Below, one piece after another: positions 37,597 to 45,791 of a stretch of DNA of 64,000 nucleotides. Within the stretch, counting starts at the first letter, position 1. Each line of letters starts with the position of its first letter. The stretch comes from Candidatus Gastranaerophilales bacterium. GTDB taxonomy: Bacteria; Cyanobacteriota; Vampirovibrionia; Gastranaerophilales; Gastranaerophilaceae. Both the position numbers and the translations under genes were made by a program. The stretch is taken from NCBI GenBank assembly GCA_944326485.1, contig CALVED010000002.1, positions 248,001 to 312,000 on the forward strand, in the 5' to 3' direction. The notes beneath the pieces are model-generated. The model saw only the letters and a program-made list of their open reading frames with translations. It had not been told where the DNA came from and did not search any database.

Positions 37597-40500
37597 TTAT
37601 CTTTCTATAGAGTTGAGTTGACAAAATGTTTTAAAAGAAGATCGTTCTTTAGATGCTTTTTCAATTAGTGGACTTATTTTTAAATCTTTAGCAATAAAAA
37701 TAGCTTTATTGTACATGTCATTAGTAAGCTTTATGTAATCTTCATTAAATGTTTGTTTTGTATTCATATATTCTTCCATATATTTGCCATAATCAATATA
37801 TAAATCGACAAGTTGATATTTTAGATTGTATTGTTTCGCAAGCATAATAGCTTTTTCAAGGTACATTTTAACTGCAATTAAATCACCTTTTAATAAATAT
37901 ATTTCGGCTATAAATTGTTGGAAGTATATAATAAAGAAGAAATTATTTATTTTAGGGCTCTGGGCTATTTCTAGTGCTTTAGTTGCCGTATTAAGAGCTT
38001 TATCTATATCACCCATATCTATACTTATTTTAACGATTAATGCCCAAGAAAGAAGTGCTCCAATTGCAACTTTCTCTTTTGCAAAATATGTTATTTCTTC
38101 ATTGAAAATTGTTAGAGCTTTCGCTGTATTTCCTTCTTCTTTTAAAATATAACCTAATATTAACTTTATAATATTTTTCATAAAGTGTTCATTGATATTA
38201 TTTGTAAATGCAGCAAGCTCAAATAAATCTGCCTTTATATCATCATTTTGTTTTGTCAAAATTCTGTTAATTATGTTAATTAGGTTCCATTCCGATAATA
38301 AAGATGGAGACATTGATGATGTTTTATACCTTTGCATGATACTTGTTAATATTTCATTAGAGGTATTAATATTACCATAAGAGGTATTTGCAAATGCTTC
38401 TATTAAATCGGTTTGAGTTATATAATAAGCAGTTTTGTAATTATATTGTGATAAAAAGTCTTTGATTGCAGTTGTAATAGAAAATACTTCATTATTACCT
38501 TGAAGTACAAAAGCTTTTGCAAGTACAGTATTAGATAATATCCAAGCATCAATTAAAATATTTTTATAACTTGTATCAACTTGTTTTGATGAAAGCTCCT
38601 TATTAATTTCAGGAAGTATTTCTTCTTGAATGATATTAATAATTTGTTCACTATTTCCAATATTTAACAAGGCTTTAAGTTTTCTTGTTTTTATCAATGC
38701 TAAATCACAATCTGATACTTTATTCCCTTCAGGAGGAATACTTGCAATAATAGCATCTACAGCTTCAGCTGCACCAAAGTAATTACCTGTTAAATAACAA
38801 CTGTTAATAAAGTATCCTGATACGTCAATTATTTTATTTATGTTATTTGCTTTTATTTCTGAGTCTAGTACATTTGCAAGATAAGTTATTGCTTCTGTTG
38901 GAGATTTTATGCTTAAAAGTTTTCCTATTTGTTCATATATAATAGAACGAATGATTTCCGCATCTTTTATTGATTGTTCTTCTAATATTTTTAAACATTG
39001 TTTTTGTGCTATAACATATAAATTTGTATCACCAAGCTTGGCTGTTATTTCAGAAGTGTCTTTCCAGATATTAAATTCTTCTTGCTTATTTAATGCTGCT
39101 GCACAAGATATTAGTTTTTGTATGTTGCTTGAAAGAATTAGAGGTTTTAAAGTTGCATATAATCGTTCAGAATTTTCCTTAAAAAGGAGATCATTTTTTG
39201 CTTCTTGGTATATTAATTTCCATATAGTTAAACTTTTGAATTCACAAGTAAAATTATCTACAGGAGATATAAAAAGTTCTTGTTTAAGAAAATCTATTAT
39301 TTTTTCAGCCTTTTTTACAGGCATGTCTACAGATAAACATAAAATATTTGTTGCGAACCTATATCCCATAATAGCAGCCATAAAAAGAATATTTTTTGTA
39401 CTTGGTGCTAATGCATTTATTCTTAATTTTATTAATTCTTCTAATGATTTTGGTTCATTTTCATATCTGTTATTTTCATCTATATATATTTCATTATCTT
39501 TTATACTAATATAATTTATGTCAAATAAAAATGCTATTTCTTGTTCCATTCTTATTGCATTACCTTCTGTTCTTTTTATGATTTCATCTAAATAGTTAGA
39601 AGGCATAATTTCTTCTATGTTCAAGGAAATAGATCTATTTACTGCATCTATTAATTCATTCCTATTAAATTTTTTAAGACAAATTGTTTCGAATATATTC
39701 TCATCAACCACTGTAATGTCAAAATAACTTTGTATAGATTTATTCTCTTGATAGGCAACAAATAATTTTAATCTGTTATTAAAAAACTTACTTTCCATTA
39801 AATGCATAATAAAATCATATGAAGCACCATCTAATAATTCAAAATTATCAATCGTAATTATTAAATTAGAATTTAATAGGAATGATTTGATAACTTTTTC
39901 TAGTACAGAAAACAATTGTTGTTTATTTTCCAGAATATTTTCAAATGAATCTTTTTCTACAGGATAAAAAATATTCAAAAACAGCAAGAGTTCATGCTCT
40001 TTCAAAAAATTAAAAACATTTGCAAAAGAACTTTTTTTAAAGTCTTTTATAAAAGTATCTTTACTGTTTATAAATGGTGGAAAGCCCATCATTCGAAGAA
40101 ATGCATCTTGGAAAAATCCAAAACTTGTTATTTGAGATAAAGGTGTACAATTTCCATATAAAGAAATATATTTTTCATTTTCTAATAGTGTAGAAACTTG
40201 TTTTAATACAGCTGTTTTTCCACAACCTTCGGGGCCGTTTATAGCAATAACATGTTTATTTATTGAATTTTTTATTGTAAAAACAGCTTTTTTTACAGCA
40301 TCTTGTTGTACTGTTATATCTTGATAATTAAATCCTTTTTCAGAATCAAAATCCTGTTCGTTATTTTGATCATACTGTTCTTCATTTTCATTATTAAGGC
40401 TTTCTTGAACATCAATATCAACAAATTCCTCTATTGGTTGTATATCAATTTCGTCTTCAAGAAAATCATTATTTTTTTGTTTATTATTGTTTATTATTGA

Positions 40501-41247
40501 ATAGTCTTGATTATTATCGTTATTGCTTGTTTCATCTGATAAATTTATTTCTTTATTTTGAACAGCAGTTTTTTCTTTTGTATCATCTTCCGTGGACAAG
40601 ACTTTTTCGTTATTGTTATTATCCGGAATTGTATTGATATTATCTTCTAATATTTCTTCTTGTATTTGTGAAGAATTATTTTCTGATGTTTTATTTTCTA
40701 TTTTTTCTTGAGATTCTTGTGTGAATTCTTTTCCTTCTTTATCTTGGTTGTCGTTGCATTCTTGTTGATTATTTTTTTCATTTAATTCTTTTGTTTCTTC
40801 ATGTTCGTCTATATCAAGGGTAGAATCTGTTTCTTCTATACTATTAAGGAAATGGTTGTTTTGTTCGCTATAATCCTGTGGATTTATTTCTTTTTCACAA
40901 GAAGGTATATCTTCTTTTTGATGTAGTGGGTTTACAATATTGCAATCTTGAGAAGAATCATTGTTTATTTCAGTACAGCTTATAGGTCTTACAATTTCTA
41001 ATTCAGTATTTGTAACTTGATTATTTAGAGGAGTCTTACATTTTCTGCATTCTTTAGCAGAATATATATTGGAGCATTTACAGTTCGGACAAGTTTTAAT
41101 TAGTTCATAACCGCAATTTTTACAATATTTTGTCCCAAAAACATTAAGTGTTTTACACTCCGGACAAATCATGTTTACTTTTATTCCACAATTACTACAT
41201 CTGATTGCATTATCAGGTAAAGAAGCTCCGCATTTACGACAAATCAT
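37597..41247 (-). CDS. Triple zinc-ribbon / P-loop ATPase / TPR protein, third gene of sigma-factor operon
   Basis: A large (1,216-residue) regulatory-type protein. Residues 1-75 hold three zinc ribbons in tandem (C3-x2-C6 with C17-x2-C20, C28/C31 with C42/C45, C53/C56 with C67/C70). Residues about 80-315 form an acidic, Asn/Gln/Glu-rich linker expected to be disordered. An AAA/STAND-like ATPase follows: Walker A INGPEGCGKTAVLKQ (about 336-344), Walker B LIITIDNFELL (about 463), and a winged-helix-like region to about 650. The rest is a helical array of TPR-like repeats to the C-terminus. The layout resembles signal-transduction ATPases of the MalT or cyclase-associated type but lacks an output enzyme domain. 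It is cytosolic. It begins 10 bp after the sigma-factor gene, so they are one operon. The function is not known. Confidence 0.82.
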   Translation of the reverse strand: MICRKCGASLPDNAIRCSNCGIKVNMICPECKTLNVFGTKYCKNCGYELIKTCPNCKCSNIYSAKECRKCKTPLNNQVTNTELEIVRPISCTEINNDSSQDCNIVNPLHQKEDIPSCEKEINPQDYSEQNNHFLNSIEETDSTLDIDEHEETKELNEKNNQQECNDNQDKEGKEFTQESQEKIENKTSENNSSQIQEEILEDNINTIPDNNNNEKVLSTEDDTKEKTAVQNKEINLSDETSNNDNNQDYSIINNNKQKNNDFLEDEIDIQPIEEFVDIDVQESLNNENEEQYDQNNEQDFDSEKGFNYQDITVQQDAVKKAVFTIKNSINKHVIAINGPEGCGKTAVLKQVSTLLENEKYISLYGNCTPLSQITSFGFFQDAFLRMMGFPPFINSKDTFIKDFKKSSFANVFNFLKEHELLLFLNIFYPVEKDSFENILENKQQLFSVLEKVIKSFLLNSNLIITIDNFELLDGASYDFIMHLMESKFFNNRLKLFVAYQENKSIQSYFDITVVDENIFETICLKKFNRNELIDAVNRSISLNIEEIMPSNYLDEIIKRTEGNAIRMEQEIAFLFDINYISIKDNEIYIDENNRYENEPKSLEELIKLRINALAPSTKNILFMAAIMGYRFATNILCLSVDMPVKKAEKIIDFLKQELFISPVDNFTCEFKSLTIWKLIYQEAKNDLLFKENSERLYATLKPLILSSNIQKLISCAAALNKQEEFNIWKDTSEITAKLGDTNLYVIAQKQCLKILEEQSIKDAEIIRSIIYEQIGKLLSIKSPTEAITYLANVLDSEIKANNINKIIDVSGYFINSCYLTGNYFGAAEAVDAIIASIPPEGNKVSDCDLALIKTRKLKALLNIGNSEQIINIIQEEILPEINKELSSKQVDTSYKNILIDAWILSNTVLAKAFVLQGNNEVFSITTAIKDFLSQYNYKTAYYITQTDLIEAFANTSYGNINTSNEILTSIMQRYKTSSMSPSLLSEWNLINIINRILTKQNDDIKADLFELAAFTNNINEHFMKNIIKLILGYILKEEGNTAKALTIFNEEITYFAKEKVAIGALLSWALIVKISIDMGDIDKALNTATKALEIAQSPKINNFFFIIYFQQFIAEIYLLKGDLIAVKMYLEKAIMLAKQYNLKYQLVDLYIDYGKYMEEYMNTKQTFNEDYIKLTNDMYNKAIFIAKDLKISPLIEKASKERSSFKTFCQLNSIER

Positions 41248-41256
41248 GATTCAAAC

Positions 41257-41841
41257 CTAACTTTTGCTGTTATCGAGAAAATTACTTATTAATTTAGATA
41301 ATTGCATAAGCCTTTTACTGATTTCAGATTGTGATAAATTTAAAGATTTGGAAATTTCACTTTGTTTAAGCCCTTTTACATATCTTAAATAAAAAATGTC
41401 TAAAAAAGCCTGAGATGGCAATTCTTTATGTATAATACAAACGGCATCTGCAATTCTTTGAAGGCAATCTTTTGTAATAAGTATTTCTTCTGCACTATCT
41501 TTGGGATCAGGAAAGTCTAAAATAAAATTAGGATCAACTGCTTGTGCTTTTTCTGTTCCAACTGCAAGATTGGATACTGTAACTTCTTTTGTTGGTATGT
41601 ATCCTTCAGATGTTCTTCTTATTCTCCCTGAATTTTTTAGAACGCATAATATTGAGGTATGGACTACTTTTGTAACATAATTTTCGATTTTTTGAATATT
41701 AGAAGAAGAATTGAACATCATATATGATTTTTGAAATGCTTCACTACAAAAATCTTCAAATAAGTCTTCATTTCCTTTGAAGTTCTTGTTAGATTTTACT
41801 ATTTTTTCTATTAAAGATCTTTGTTCTTCAACTAAAAGCAC
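41257..41841 (-). CDS. Sigma-70-like (ECF-type) RNA polymerase sigma factor
   Basis: The 194-residue product has two helical domains joined by a linker. The N-terminal part (about 8-65, EDLFEDFCSEAFQKSYMMF) fits a diverged region 2, and the C-terminal part has a clear region 4 helix-turn-helix (about 140-185: FYLRYVKGLKQSEISKSLNLSQSEISKRL). The middle linker (about 80-125) is long for an ECF factor. The start is GTG 41841; the Shine-Dalgarno is weak, and translation may couple to the upstream gene, whose stop is 48 bp away. It lies between a ZAS-type transmembrane anti-sigma candidate and a zinc-ribbon ATPase. In Cyanobacteria, DUF1822 genes are often next to sigma factors of this sort (recalled, not checked). 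A non-sigma HTH regulator is the alternative. Confidence 0.75.
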   Translation of the reverse strand: MLLVEEQRSLIEKIVKSNKNFKGNEDLFEDFCSEAFQKSYMMFNSSSNIQKIENYVTKVVHTSILCVLKNSGRIRRTSEGYIPTKEVTVSNLAVGTEKAQAVDPNFILDFPDPKDSAEEILITKDCLQRIADAVCIIHKELPSQAFLDIFYLRYVKGLKQSEISKSLNLSQSEISKRLMQLSKLISNFLDNSKS

Positions 41842-41889
41842 AAGTATAATTCTCTAATCTCGCATACCCATACAATATAATAACACAAA

Positions 41890-44469
41890 TTACAATTTTA
41901 TTACTACTTGTAAGAAATATTTATCCGCTTTTTGCTCGCTATCATTGAGAATAGTGGTTTTTTGAGATTCAACTGTTTCTTTAATACTTTGTAACACAAT
42001 GTTATCAATTTCGTTTGAACCGCTTGAAGTTGATACTAATGTTTTCAATAAATTACCATTATTATCTATTGCTATTTTAACCGCAACTGAATTATTTGTA
42101 GGAATATCTGTAGTATCAAGTATATTTTTCCTTAAATTCAGTTTTAAAATGTTATCTAAATTTTGCAGGTAATTTTTAAATATTTTATCAGTAAATAAGC
42201 TTGGTGCACACATCCAATTTACTCCTCTGATAGAAACATTATTTATTCCATTAGAAAAAGCATTCGACATAACTTTATTAATGTCACCAGTTGGTTTATT
42301 ATTGGTTAATAAATCTTTTTCCGTTAGAGGTTTTGCTTCATTAATATTATTGTTTGTTACTGCAGGAATATTAATATTTTCTGTTTCCGGAGTATCAATA
42401 ATTCCTGGTGGAGGTATTAAATCATTATTTGTTGGAATGTTATTATTAACATTATTTTCTGCTGCAATTAAATCATTAGTAGTTGGCTCGTTTGTTTCAG
42501 GTTGCTCGAACATGTCATTTGTTGTGTTTGCGTCTGGTATTTCAGTTTGGCTTGCAGAATTTGTATTGCTAGTATGTGTGGCAGCATTAATATATTTCAT
42601 GGCAAATAATGCTCCACCAGATGCAATAATGAATATTAATATAAATAATCCTGCTATTAATCCTTTTTTTGATGTTTTTTTGTTTTGTTCAATACCGTCA
42701 TTTTCTGATTCATCCTCTTCATATTCATCATCTTCAGGATCCAATAGTTCATCATCATCTTCTTTAAATGTATCTTCATCAGAGAATAGAGGATCATCTT
42801 CGAGTTTTTCATCAAAATCTTGTATTTCCTCTTCATCTTCCGCATCATTTTCAAAATTATTGTTCTGATTTAATTGAGTTATGTTGTTTGGACTGTCTAC
42901 AATAGATTTACTGATTGTAGAATTAGTATTTGTAACCTCATCTATTTCATTTTCTTTTTCATCTTTTATATCTTCAATTTCTTCGATGTTTGATATATCT
43001 TTTGTATTCTCTATATTCTCTGAAATATCATCAGGTTCAGAAATATTTTGTTCCGTATCAATTATAGTCTTATCTTTTGCTTCGTTTTCTGTTTTTGATT
43101 CTATATTTGAATCTGATACATTTGTTATATATGAATATATTGGTTCTCCAAATTCATCATAATCTACAATTACTTTTTCTACTTTATCTTCTTCTTTTTT
43201 ATCTTCAATAATTGTAGGTTCTTCTGTAATAATTTCTGGTATAGAATCTTTTATTGGTTCTATTTCGGTAGTTTTGTCTTCTTCTATGAAAACTAAGTCG
43301 GGTTTTTTATTTATATCTAAGAAATTTTCTTCAATTAAATTTAATTCTTCTTCTGAAAAGCTTTCAGTTTTTGGATTATCTTCAATAATCATTTCAAGAT
43401 CTTCTGTATTATTGCCTAAATCTAAAAGATTAGAACTTGAATCTTCATCTAAAATATCTAAATCTTCCTGTTCTATAATATCTTTAGGAGAAATAGAATC
43501 TATAATTGATTTTTCTTTTGTGTTTTCTTCTATTGGTTTCGTTTCTTCATCTATATTAAATAATTCATCCAATATATCAGAAACAGTTTCTTCTTGTTCT
43601 TTTGAGCTTTCATCAATTATTTCTTCTTCTTTGTTTTCTTCAATTCCTGTATTTGGAGAATCATTTATTTCATCTTTATTTTCGAAATAAATTGTTTCTT
43701 CTTTATCTTTATATTTTGAAGAATCAATCGCCTGAGCTCCTACTATGTTAAGTGTTTGATCTTCAAGAAGTTCCGGATATTTGCTCAAATTGCAGCTAAC
43801 CATTTCAAAACCTGTAAAACAGCAGAATTCTGTACGGCATTCACAGCATTCAAATAAGTGTTTTAAGATTTTGTTTTTGGTACTTCTATCAATTTCATTA
43901 TCCATTAAGCTTAAATAAGATTCTTTAAATAGATTATGATCTTCTTCTTTAAAGTTTATTATTTTTTTTGATTTGACTTTATTTAAAAATTCTTCATAGC
44001 TTATTAAATTGCTGTTTGAAACGCTATAATAGTGGTAATCGAATCCTTCTTTTGGCATTGTTTCAGTATCAGCAAATCCTATTAATTCTGCACTGGTTAA
44101 TTTTTTATCTACTTTTATTACTGCATAAAAATCAGGTACTATATCGGTATCGAAGTGGATTTTTGGAACGAGAAATGCGTTTCCGTCTGTAATTATACGA
44201 ACATCAATATGCCAATTATTTACATATAAGTCTGAAATTTCATACTGTTCATTTAGTAGTGGATTCCTAAATATTGTCATTGATTTTTGTATGTCATAAT
44301 CAGTTTTTTCAAGGAGATTAATTAATGCATATAATGCAGCAATAGATGCATATGCTCTTTTCCTTTGAAAATTGTCAGATAAAAGTGATGAGTATATTTT
44401 TGCATAACTATGTGCTTTTTCATCTATTTGTAATTTAATTATGTCTGTAGGTGTCATATTTTTCTCCAA
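41890..44469 (-). CDS. DUF1822-like transmembrane anti-sigma candidate with TonB-like C-terminal domain
   Basis: The 859-residue product has, in order: a DUF1822-like N-terminal domain (about 30-140, with AALYALINLLEK, a D-V-R strand and ELIGFADTE); a zinc-binding anti-sigma motif H204-x3-C208-x2-C211 in KHLFECCECRTEF; a very acidic disordered linker (about 245-600); one membrane helix (about 605-627, GLIAGLFILIFIIASGGALF); an Asn/Thr/Pro-rich periplasmic stretch; and a TonB C-terminal-like domain (about 755-859, VAVKIAIDNNGNLLKTLVSTSSGSNEID). The predicted topology is N-in, C-out. The small sigma factor is encoded immediately downstream, so holding and releasing that factor in response to an envelope signal is the simplest reading. 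GGAG precedes the ATG. Function is inference; the motifs are directly visible. Confidence 0.8.
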   Translation of the reverse strand: MEKNMTPTDIIKLQIDEKAHSYAKIYSSLLSDNFQRKRAYASIAALYALINLLEKTDYDIQKSMTIFRNPLLNEQYEISDLYVNNWHIDVRIITDGNAFLVPKIHFDTDIVPDFYAVIKVDKKLTSAELIGFADTETMPKEGFDYHYYSVSNSNLISYEEFLNKVKSKKIINFKEEDHNLFKESYLSLMDNEIDRSTKNKILKHLFECCECRTEFCCFTGFEMVSCNLSKYPELLEDQTLNIVGAQAIDSSKYKDKEETIYFENKDEINDSPNTGIEENKEEEIIDESSKEQEETVSDILDELFNIDEETKPIEENTKEKSIIDSISPKDIIEQEDLDILDEDSSSNLLDLGNNTEDLEMIIEDNPKTESFSEEELNLIEENFLDINKKPDLVFIEEDKTTEIEPIKDSIPEIITEEPTIIEDKKEEDKVEKVIVDYDEFGEPIYSYITNVSDSNIESKTENEAKDKTIIDTEQNISEPDDISENIENTKDISNIEEIEDIKDEKENEIDEVTNTNSTISKSIVDSPNNITQLNQNNNFENDAEDEEEIQDFDEKLEDDPLFSDEDTFKEDDDELLDPEDDEYEEDESENDGIEQNKKTSKKGLIAGLFILIFIIASGGALFAMKYINAATHTSNTNSASQTEIPDANTTNDMFEQPETNEPTTNDLIAAENNVNNNIPTNNDLIPPPGIIDTPETENINIPAVTNNNINEAKPLTEKDLLTNNKPTGDINKVMSNAFSNGINNVSIRGVNWMCAPSLFTDKIFKNYLQNLDNILKLNLRKNILDTTDIPTNNSVAVKIAIDNNGNLLKTLVSTSSGSNEIDNIVLQSIKETVESQKTTILNDSEQKADKYFLQVVIKL

Positions 44470-44587
44470 ACTTATACCTAGTATCCACTTAAATAAAACT
44501 TTCTATTTATATAGATAGCAGATTAAAAAAAAATATTCCAATTTAAATAAAAATACTATAAATAGATGAGTAAAGTATTTATTTATC

Positions 44588-44679: not shown

Positions 44680-44797
44680 AAAGAAGTCTCGATGTGTTTT
44701 TTTATGAAATGTAACAAAATATTAAGCAAAAAGGATTAAAAGAACAATTTTTTATAATCATAGGTTTTATGAATTTACCAAAGTGAAGGAGGTAATT

Positions 44798-45166
44798 ATG
44801 ATTAGTTCGGTAAGTTTTGCAAGTGCTCAAACAGGTGCAACAAGTTTTGAGGATAAAATAAAGCAACCACAAGCATACGTAACAAAAGAAGCACCACAAG
44901 CTGCAACAAAGATTAACGGTAAAGAAAAAAAGGGTAGTGCAGGCAAAACAGCTGCGAAACTGGCAATTGCCGCAGTCGCTATAGCTGCTGTATTAGCAGG
45001 TGTTTCTAAAAAAGGTATATTAAAAGTAAATCCTGATGGAAATAAAACTTTAAATGCTATTAAAACAGGAATAAATACTGCCGGAAATTGGATTTTTGAA
45101 AAAGCAGTATCTCTAAAAGACAAGGTATTACCAAAAGCCCAAGAACATATTGATGATTTGGCCTAA
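44798..45166 (+). CDS. Small membrane protein, paralogue of the next gene
   Basis: Not recognised. The 122-residue product has a Ser/Thr/Gln-rich head (MISSVSFASAQTGATSFEDK), a lysine-rich stretch, and one alanine-rich hydrophobic helix (about 52-71, AAKLAIAAVAIAAVLAGV). It continues with SKKGILKVNPDG and an amphipathic C-terminal half. AAGGAGGT 5 nt before ATG 44798 fixes the start; an in-frame GTG at 44783 lies just ahead of that Shine-Dalgarno. The block from the hydrophobic helix through KKG.L...G is shared with the gene at 45375. It has its own promoter and terminator. The overall plan (polar head, one hydrophobic segment, helical tail) resembles the MKIN/FKG proteins, though the head differs. 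Confidence 0.75.
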   Translation: MISSVSFASAQTGATSFEDKIKQPQAYVTKEAPQAATKINGKEKKGSAGKTAAKLAIAAVAIAAVLAGVSKKGILKVNPDGNKTLNAIKTGINTAGNWIFEKAVSLKDKVLPKAQEHIDDLA

Positions 45167-45374: not shown

Positions 45375-45791
45375 ATGATACAACCAGTTCAAGCACAAAG
45401 CAAAACAAGTCCTGTAAAAACCGCAGTAAAAACAGCAGCTGCTGCAGCCGTTGCAACAGGTACAGTTCTTTATCTTGCAAAAAAGGGTAAGTTAAATCCA
45501 GCTGAAGGAGATAATATAGTTATAAAAAATGTTAAAGCAGGACTTAAAAAACCTGCAGATTATGTTCTTAACAAAGGTGGTAATTTAATCAATAGATTAA
45601 ATTCTGTAATAGCTAATAATGAAAAATTATCTCTCGCAAAAAAGAAAATAGACTCAATCGGTTCGAATGTTTCTAAACTAAAAAATGATTTCCTTGCTTC
45701 TGATTTTAAGGCAGGAATTGATAAAAAAGTAGATACTTTAAAAGATTTTGTTGAAAGTAAATTTAATAAAGTAAAATTTTCAGGAAAATAG
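45375..45791 (+). CDS. Small membrane protein, paralogue of the preceding gene
   Basis: Not recognised. The 138-residue product starts MIQPVQAQSKTS, then a basic alanine-rich hydrophobic segment (about 14-38, AVKTAAAAAVATGTVLYLA) followed by KKGKLNPAEGDN, which parallels KKGILKVNPDGN in the neighbouring gene. The remaining 95 residues are lysine-rich amphipathic helix ending in KVKFSGK, reminiscent of the FKG motif placed at the opposite end in the MKIN proteins. AGGAG precedes the ATG. A terminator and copy E of the dispersed repeat follow. The upstream spacer holds a TTACAT (45229-45234) and an ATGTAA (45291-45296) like the XRE operator half-sites, possibly by chance. Confidence 0.75.
   Translation: MIQPVQAQSKTSPVKTAVKTAAAAAVATGTVLYLAKKGKLNPAEGDNIVIKNVKAGLKKPADYVLNKGGNLINRLNSVIANNEKLSLAKKKIDSIGSNVSKLKNDFLASDFKAGIDKKVDTLKDFVESKFNKVKFSGK

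Follow-up and report, generated by a model that had tools for sequence, protein, structure and literature searches.

Does the three-gene operon studied here encode a membrane-controlled sigma factor switch, and does the large ATPase at its end form a working part of that switch? The operon lies in a window of 64,000 nucleotides (the whole stretch of DNA that was analysed), taken from a genome of 1.9 Mb whose close relatives are Candidatus Gastranaerophilales assemblies, many of animal-gut origin. Three open reading frames occupy positions 44469-41890, 41841-41257 and 41247-37597, all on the minus strand, as are all features of the operon described below. An earlier note on this DNA had given the gaps between these three one-strand genes as 48 and 10 bp; the common strand and the first gap were correct, and the second gap is 9 bases. 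The TTG that opens the first frame (44469) falls within the Shine-Dalgarno sequence (TTGGAGAAAAATATG), whose GGAG at 44464..44467 overlaps it, and relatives use a start that matches the ATG at 44457. This ATG is therefore the likely start of the anti-sigma gene, giving a protein of 855 rather than 859 amino acids. TTTGGAGAAAAAT stands immediately 5' of it, and with this start the zinc motif described below falls at residue 200, its place in most relatives too. In two relatives (L106 and L107) the mechanically assigned starts of this gene are about 67 and 30 codons too early; with the matching start the promoter lies upstream of the gene, like in the remaining loci.

The second gene (41257..41841) encodes an ECF-type sigma factor of 194 amino acids. 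The NCBIfam sigma-70/ECF model TIGR02937 matches residues 6-185 with 46.2 bits (cut-off 42.9), and a profile built from 16 orthologues found no better match in the PDB than SigW of B. subtilis (5wuq_A, E=2.4e-4, residues 20-175). The AF2 model of the protein is of moderate quality (pLDDT 75.9); in fold searches its halves matched sigma region 2 and region 4, and ECF sigma structures ranked at the top. With its small size, its sigma-70 profile match and regions 2 and 4 only, the protein has the make-up of the ECF group (group 4). The Pfam region 2 model (PF04542) gives no match to it, thus annotation by Pfam only could overlook this sigma factor. Eight further genes with sigma region 2 are present in the same genome. 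The literature searched held no published sigma-factor study for Gastranaerophilales.

The first gene (41890..44457) encodes a putative membrane anti-sigma factor, as judged by domains, a motif, a profile and topology. From its N-terminus the protein consists of a DUF1822 domain, a zinc anti-sigma domain, an acidic linker, one transmembrane helix and a TonB-like C-terminus, and its relatives share the same layout. The DUF1822 domain (43969..44433, residues 13-167) was recognized by PF08852 with 44.8 bits at a cut-off of 25, in a match that spans only the first 162 of the 370 model positions. Directly after the DUF1822 residues comes YLSLMDNEIDRSTKNKILKHLFECCECRTEF, which contains an Hx3Cx2C motif (HLFECCEC, 43837..43860), by which zinc-binding class I anti-sigma factors are recognized (PMC7406223). 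This motif was found in 28 of the 29 proteins of the genus and in 7 of 11 from other families (the examined proteins of the families f2, f3 and f4 have it); L104, f5, f7 and one protein of f6 have lost it. It belongs to a class I (ZAS-type) anti-sigma domain at 43705..43947, identified by an RsiW profile match and by structure, and having the three to four helices typical of the class. When the N-terminal 261 residues, as a profile made from 23 orthologues, were compared with the whole PDB, the only matches at E up to 1 were RsiW (5wuq_C), which ranked first, and DdvA, both of them anti-sigma factors. In the AF2 model of the N-terminal part (pLDDT 87.6, pTM 0.80), residues 177-255 could be superposed on 69 of 69 residues of RsiW (5wuq_D). 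Taken singly, both the RsiW profile match (E=0.015) and the structural one (Z 6.7, rmsd 5.5) are weak. RsiW is, moreover, the partner of SigW in the crystal 5wuq, so the separate profiles of the first and second genes reached both partners of one crystal.

The rest of the protein describes a path across the membrane. The linker (42661..43689), predicted to be cytoplasmic, has 343 amino acids, 36% of which are aspartate or glutamate, and in relatives from the genus this fraction ranges from 0.32 to 0.44. It is followed by a single transmembrane helix (42604..42660, hydropathy 2.61) that is preceded by lysines (N-in), and every genus relative has one such helix. The C-terminal domain (41971..42171), predicted to be periplasmic, is of TonB_2 type (PF13103, 25.7 bits at a cut-off of 22); PF13103 matched all 10 relatives scanned, 7 of them above the cut-off. 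The first gene thus probably encodes the membrane anti-sigma partner of the neighbouring sigma factor, a reading of the sequence. The earlier proposal of a transmembrane anti-sigma candidate next to a small sigma factor is backed by the profile, the motif and the structure prediction, and also by conservation across families and an upstream ECF-type promoter. The DUF1822 and TonB_2 domains, the Hx3Cx2C motif and the promoter are features beyond the earlier description.

The zinc site raises the question of what is sensed. It could itself do the sensing, as in RsrA or ChrR, with the periplasmic part as a mere anchor; the Hx3Cx2C motif, a weak similarity to RsrA and the neighbouring nrdD/nrdG genes of anaerobic nucleotide reduction are consistent with such a redox switch. 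However, the motif occurs in about half of the membrane-bound class I anti-sigma factors and can be purely structural (PMC7406223), several relatives with the gene pair have lost it, and the TonB-like domain is conserved. We consider redox sensing by this site very improbable.

DUF1822 is a family of unknown function, hardly mentioned in the literature searched (nothing was found under PF08852). The AF2 model of residues 10-170 resembles PD-(D/E)XK folds in VIA-align (Hjc and NhoI, Z 8.6; DpnI, 7.4), at 3 A over 110 residues, and the top 17 rows are all nucleases of this type. Foldseek gave nothing significant with the same model (E above 0.1), so that the nuclease likeness comes from VIA-align only. 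D80...D89-x-R91 is kept across the order at the place expected for a nuclease motif, and here an arginine replaces the lysine of the catalytic D...(D/E)xK, which leaves the nuclease motif incomplete; the examined cyanobacterial DUF1822 proteins do not keep D80...D89-x-R91. The domain model suggests a possible catalytically dead nuclease fold, with no sign of activity. DUF1822 is present in 188 of 292 sampled genomes of the phylum. A class-wide origin was considered and rejected, as none of 40 genomes of another order in the class has the domain.

If the two proteins are partners, their genes may be expected to stay together. In all 27 further loci of the genus with enough contig the order is anti-sigma gene, sigma gene, ATPase gene, and because it is kept in 27 of 27 this order is more than chance. 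The wider neighbourhood in the genus, with pheA, two small open reading frames and nrdG, is collinear as well. We therefore rejected synteny within the genus as proof of function, since the unrelated pheA and nrdG are equally collinear. The comparison across families is informative, since there the flanking genes change: the pair is conserved across the order, the anti-sigma gene lying directly 5' of the sigma gene both within the genus and, with different flanks, in five further families (f2, f3, f4, f5 and f7). In f6 the sigma and DUF1822 genes are unlinked (L126 and L131), and in L131 the sigma gene stands right before a gene with a metallo-beta-lactamase fold and two WYL-domain genes. The three-gene order, which the earlier note proposed to look for in relatives, holds in the genus; the ATPase adjoins the pair also in f5 and f7, and it lies elsewhere in f2, f3, f4 and f6.

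In photosynthetic cyanobacteria a DUF1822 gene adjoins a sigma-type gene in 18 of 19 loci, which were picked mostly for a high DUF1822 score. These loci, like the pairing of ECF sigma factors with DUF1822 that Kaur et al. 2021 (PMC8195603) had pointed out, resemble the present pair in the adjoining of the two genes. They differ in having the sigma gene first and mostly about 390 amino acids long, and their DUF1822 is of full length, with no Hx3Cx2C, acidic-linker or TonB part. In cyanobacterial DUF1822-linked sigma factors of about 390 amino acids (L136, L147), regions 2 and 4 are separated by a long insert. In L151 a CHAT gene follows DUF1822; in L154 the gene in this place is a CHAT-CHASE2 gene. 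The statement of the earlier note that no described system was known with this combination holds in part: the sigma/DUF1822 pairing had been published, and neither an anti-sigma role nor the ATPase figures in that report (PMC8195603).

The neighbourhoods of Kaur et al. (PMC8195603), in which ECF sigma and DUF1822 genes occur with caspase-like ones, were proposed for multicellular bacteria and would suggest a conflict or cell-suicide switch here as well; the CHAT (caspase-like) genes that accompany some of the cyanobacterial pairs and the STAND-type ATPase of the operon are in line with this. The operon, however, is without a caspase, CHAT or effector gene, and its genes, present in single copy, are widespread throughout the order rather than variable. 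PADLOC reported no relevant defence protein at the locus. A role in conflict has in our judgement only a slim chance of being correct.

Upstream of the first gene we found a putative ECF-type autoregulatory promoter, TTGGAATA-N13-TGCTATCT (44513..44542), with GGAATA at -35 and a -10 element around TATCT. The exact match to the consensus TTGGAATA-N13-TGYNNTCT lies at 44514-44540, 56 bp upstream of the gene. Within 150 bp upstream of the first gene, GGAATA-N13-TGYNNTC is present in 29 of 29 loci of the genus, and the spacing of 13 is invariant: of all spacings from 6 to 29 it was the only one to occur in any of them. As controls, shuffled sequences yielded 1 site per 58000, and the pattern put off register (N12) matched 3 times in 39 genomes. 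The core GGAATA-N18-TC also precedes the DUF1822 gene in f2 (2 of 2), f4 (2 of 2) and f5 (1 of 1). In f6, despite the unlinked sigma gene, the core sits before the DUF1822 gene, once with the same spacing and once with one base less. It is absent upstream in f3 (0 of 9) and f7 (0 of 3), the families with the most diverged sigma factors (21-33% identity to that of the window, where compared). Five f3 loci (L123, L129, L135, L265 and L266) share another element upstream of the anti-sigma gene, around TAATGATA ... TATATAATTA, and this substitute parallels the diverged region 4 of their sigma factors.

In ECF operons self-activation is usual. ECF sigma factors recognise promoters with a GGAA-type -35 and a GTC/TC-type -10 element, often their own, and the conserved upstream site is of this type. 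Promoters of similar form are known: SigH of C. glutamicum uses GGAATA-N17-GTT at several genes, the near variant GGAAGA preceding an anti-sigma gene (PMC10012870), and the ECF26 form is GGAATA/GT (PMC6180224). Since the form of the upstream element is known from ECF promoters, self-activation of the operon is probable, and the element most likely represents the own promoter of the sigma factor of the second gene. Another sigma factor of the cell could own it instead, which would make the operon the lower tier of a cascade, and the eight other sigma-region-2 genes supply candidates. This is quite unlikely in our view, as the promoter goes with the DUF1822 gene and does not occur where the DUF1822-linked sigma factor is most diverged, and the usual habit of ECF operons also speaks against it.

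We then looked for further targets of the promoter. In the own genome the strict pattern gave 4 sites and the relaxed one 19, and of the relaxed sites only that of the operon is intergenic at a sensible distance from a gene; one relaxed site (C2:172788) ends 7 bases ahead of an open reading frame, and all others lie within open frames. A second convincing copy was thus not found there with either pattern. The strict search across the genus gave matches in every genome, with no obvious recurrent target among the extra ones; one recurrent extra form lies within the gene of a glycine dehydrogenase-like protein. These results could be read as a closed loop, in which the only good promoter in the genome would be that of the operon itself and the ATPase the only non-regulatory output. 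In the same proposal the anti-sigma factor would be two-sided: it would read the envelope through its TonB-like domain and, through a DUF1822 domain with a degenerate nuclease fold, a ligand in the cytoplasm or a nucleic acid. We regard this combination as very doubtful.

The third gene (37597..41247) encodes a STAND/AAA_16-like ATPase of 1216 amino acids with three zinc ribbons and TPR repeats. The ribbons (41023..41247) comprise six CxxC motifs, present in all genus orthologues, and score 30.6 bits with the DZR model (cut-off 27.3). Walker A (GPEGCGKT, 40213..40236) has its G-K invariant in 30 of 30 orthologues; in Walker B (LIITIDNFE, 39838..39864) the aspartate is kept in 28 and the glutamate in 29 of 30. 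The MalT-type TPR region (37798..38193) matched PF17874 with E=1.1e-7, below the Pfam cut-off, and with AAA_16 the f7 orthologue reached 44.1 bits (cut-off 32.6), the window copy falling just under with 29.1. With Walker motifs in a STAND-like NTPase followed by repeats, the protein fits the STAND/AAA_16 type, and the description of a triple-zinc-ribbon ATPase in the earlier note was accurate. A sequence search against the PDB gave no match for it. Like MalT-type STAND ATPases it joins an AAA_16/STAND-like ATPase to a MalT-like TPR region; unlike them it has three N-terminal zinc ribbons, and a LuxR-type DNA-binding domain was not found.

Could this ATPase be an integral part of the system, which gates the pair, for example by binding the released sigma factor or the anti-sigma factor? 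Its gene starts after a gap of 9 bases in the window and is on the same strand in all genus loci; it adjoins the pair also in f5 (L125) and f7 (L132, and as a fragment beside the sigma gene in L134), where the other neighbours differ. Its zinc ribbons and Walker motifs are conserved, and an orthologue was present in 56 of 58 sampled genomes. However, the ATPase adjoins the pair in only 3 of 7 families, lying elsewhere in f2, f3, f4 and f6, and the collinearity within the genus, which includes the unrelated pheA and nrdG, says little. None of 18 unlinked orthologues carries the promoter, and unlinked ATPases were thus ruled out as members of the regulon. The idea of the earlier note that the ATPase relays or gates the signal is left unsupported, and we find a three-part relay unlikely. 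Judged from its gene context, the ATPase may be an output of the switch in this operon and not a constant part of the pair.

We thus propose, with good confidence, that the first two genes encode a membrane anti-sigma factor and its cognate ECF sigma factor, which would respond to an envelope signal by release of the sigma factor and self-activation. In the resting state the sigma factor would be bound to the zinc-site domain, which lies in the cytoplasmic part of the DUF1822 protein. The long acidic linker and the single transmembrane helix would connect this domain to the periplasmic TonB-like domain, which may sense either some state of the envelope or a partner that depends on TonB. A signal would loosen the hold on the sigma factor, via cleavage or a conformational change, and RNA polymerase with the released sigma factor would then start from the GGAATA-N18-TCT promoter that precedes the first gene, so that the operon activates itself until newly made anti-sigma factor ends the response. 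The ATPase would be co-transcribed as a possible output that the pair does not need.

Such a module is of a known kind (ECF sigma/anti-sigma) and well conserved; its architecture, DUF1822-zinc domain-acidic linker-TonB-like domain, is new. It resembles SigW/RsiW of B. subtilis, the operon of which is self-activated, and class I zinc anti-sigma factors at large, in combining an ECF sigma factor with a zinc-motif anti-sigma domain and a single transmembrane helix. Unlike in SigW/RsiW, the anti-sigma gene is the first of the two, the anti-sigma domain has an additional DUF1822 domain before it, and an acidic linker of 340 residues and a TonB-like periplasmic domain are present. FecR/PupR-type cell-surface signalling offers another parallel: there, too, the anti-sigma factor is a membrane protein whose periplasmic part could contact the TonB/outer-membrane machinery. 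The periplasmic part of FecR is a receptor-binding domain of another kind; here it is a TonB C-terminal-like domain, and no receptor gene stands beside the operon, no TonB-dependent transducer gene being found among the immediate flanking genes. The TonB-like domain on an anti-sigma factor thus suggests a reading of the outer envelope distinct from that of FecR. DUF1822 gains a proposed function as an anti-sigma partner, and a testable promoter can be named for gut Gastranaerophilales, the non-photosynthetic relatives of cyanobacteria.

Between the operon and pheA lie two small divergent open reading frames on the plus strand (44783-45166 and 45375-45791) with similar N-terminal parts. All genus loci except L116 have a relative of the first frame in the corresponding position, and a weak match was seen also beside the f7 operon (L132).
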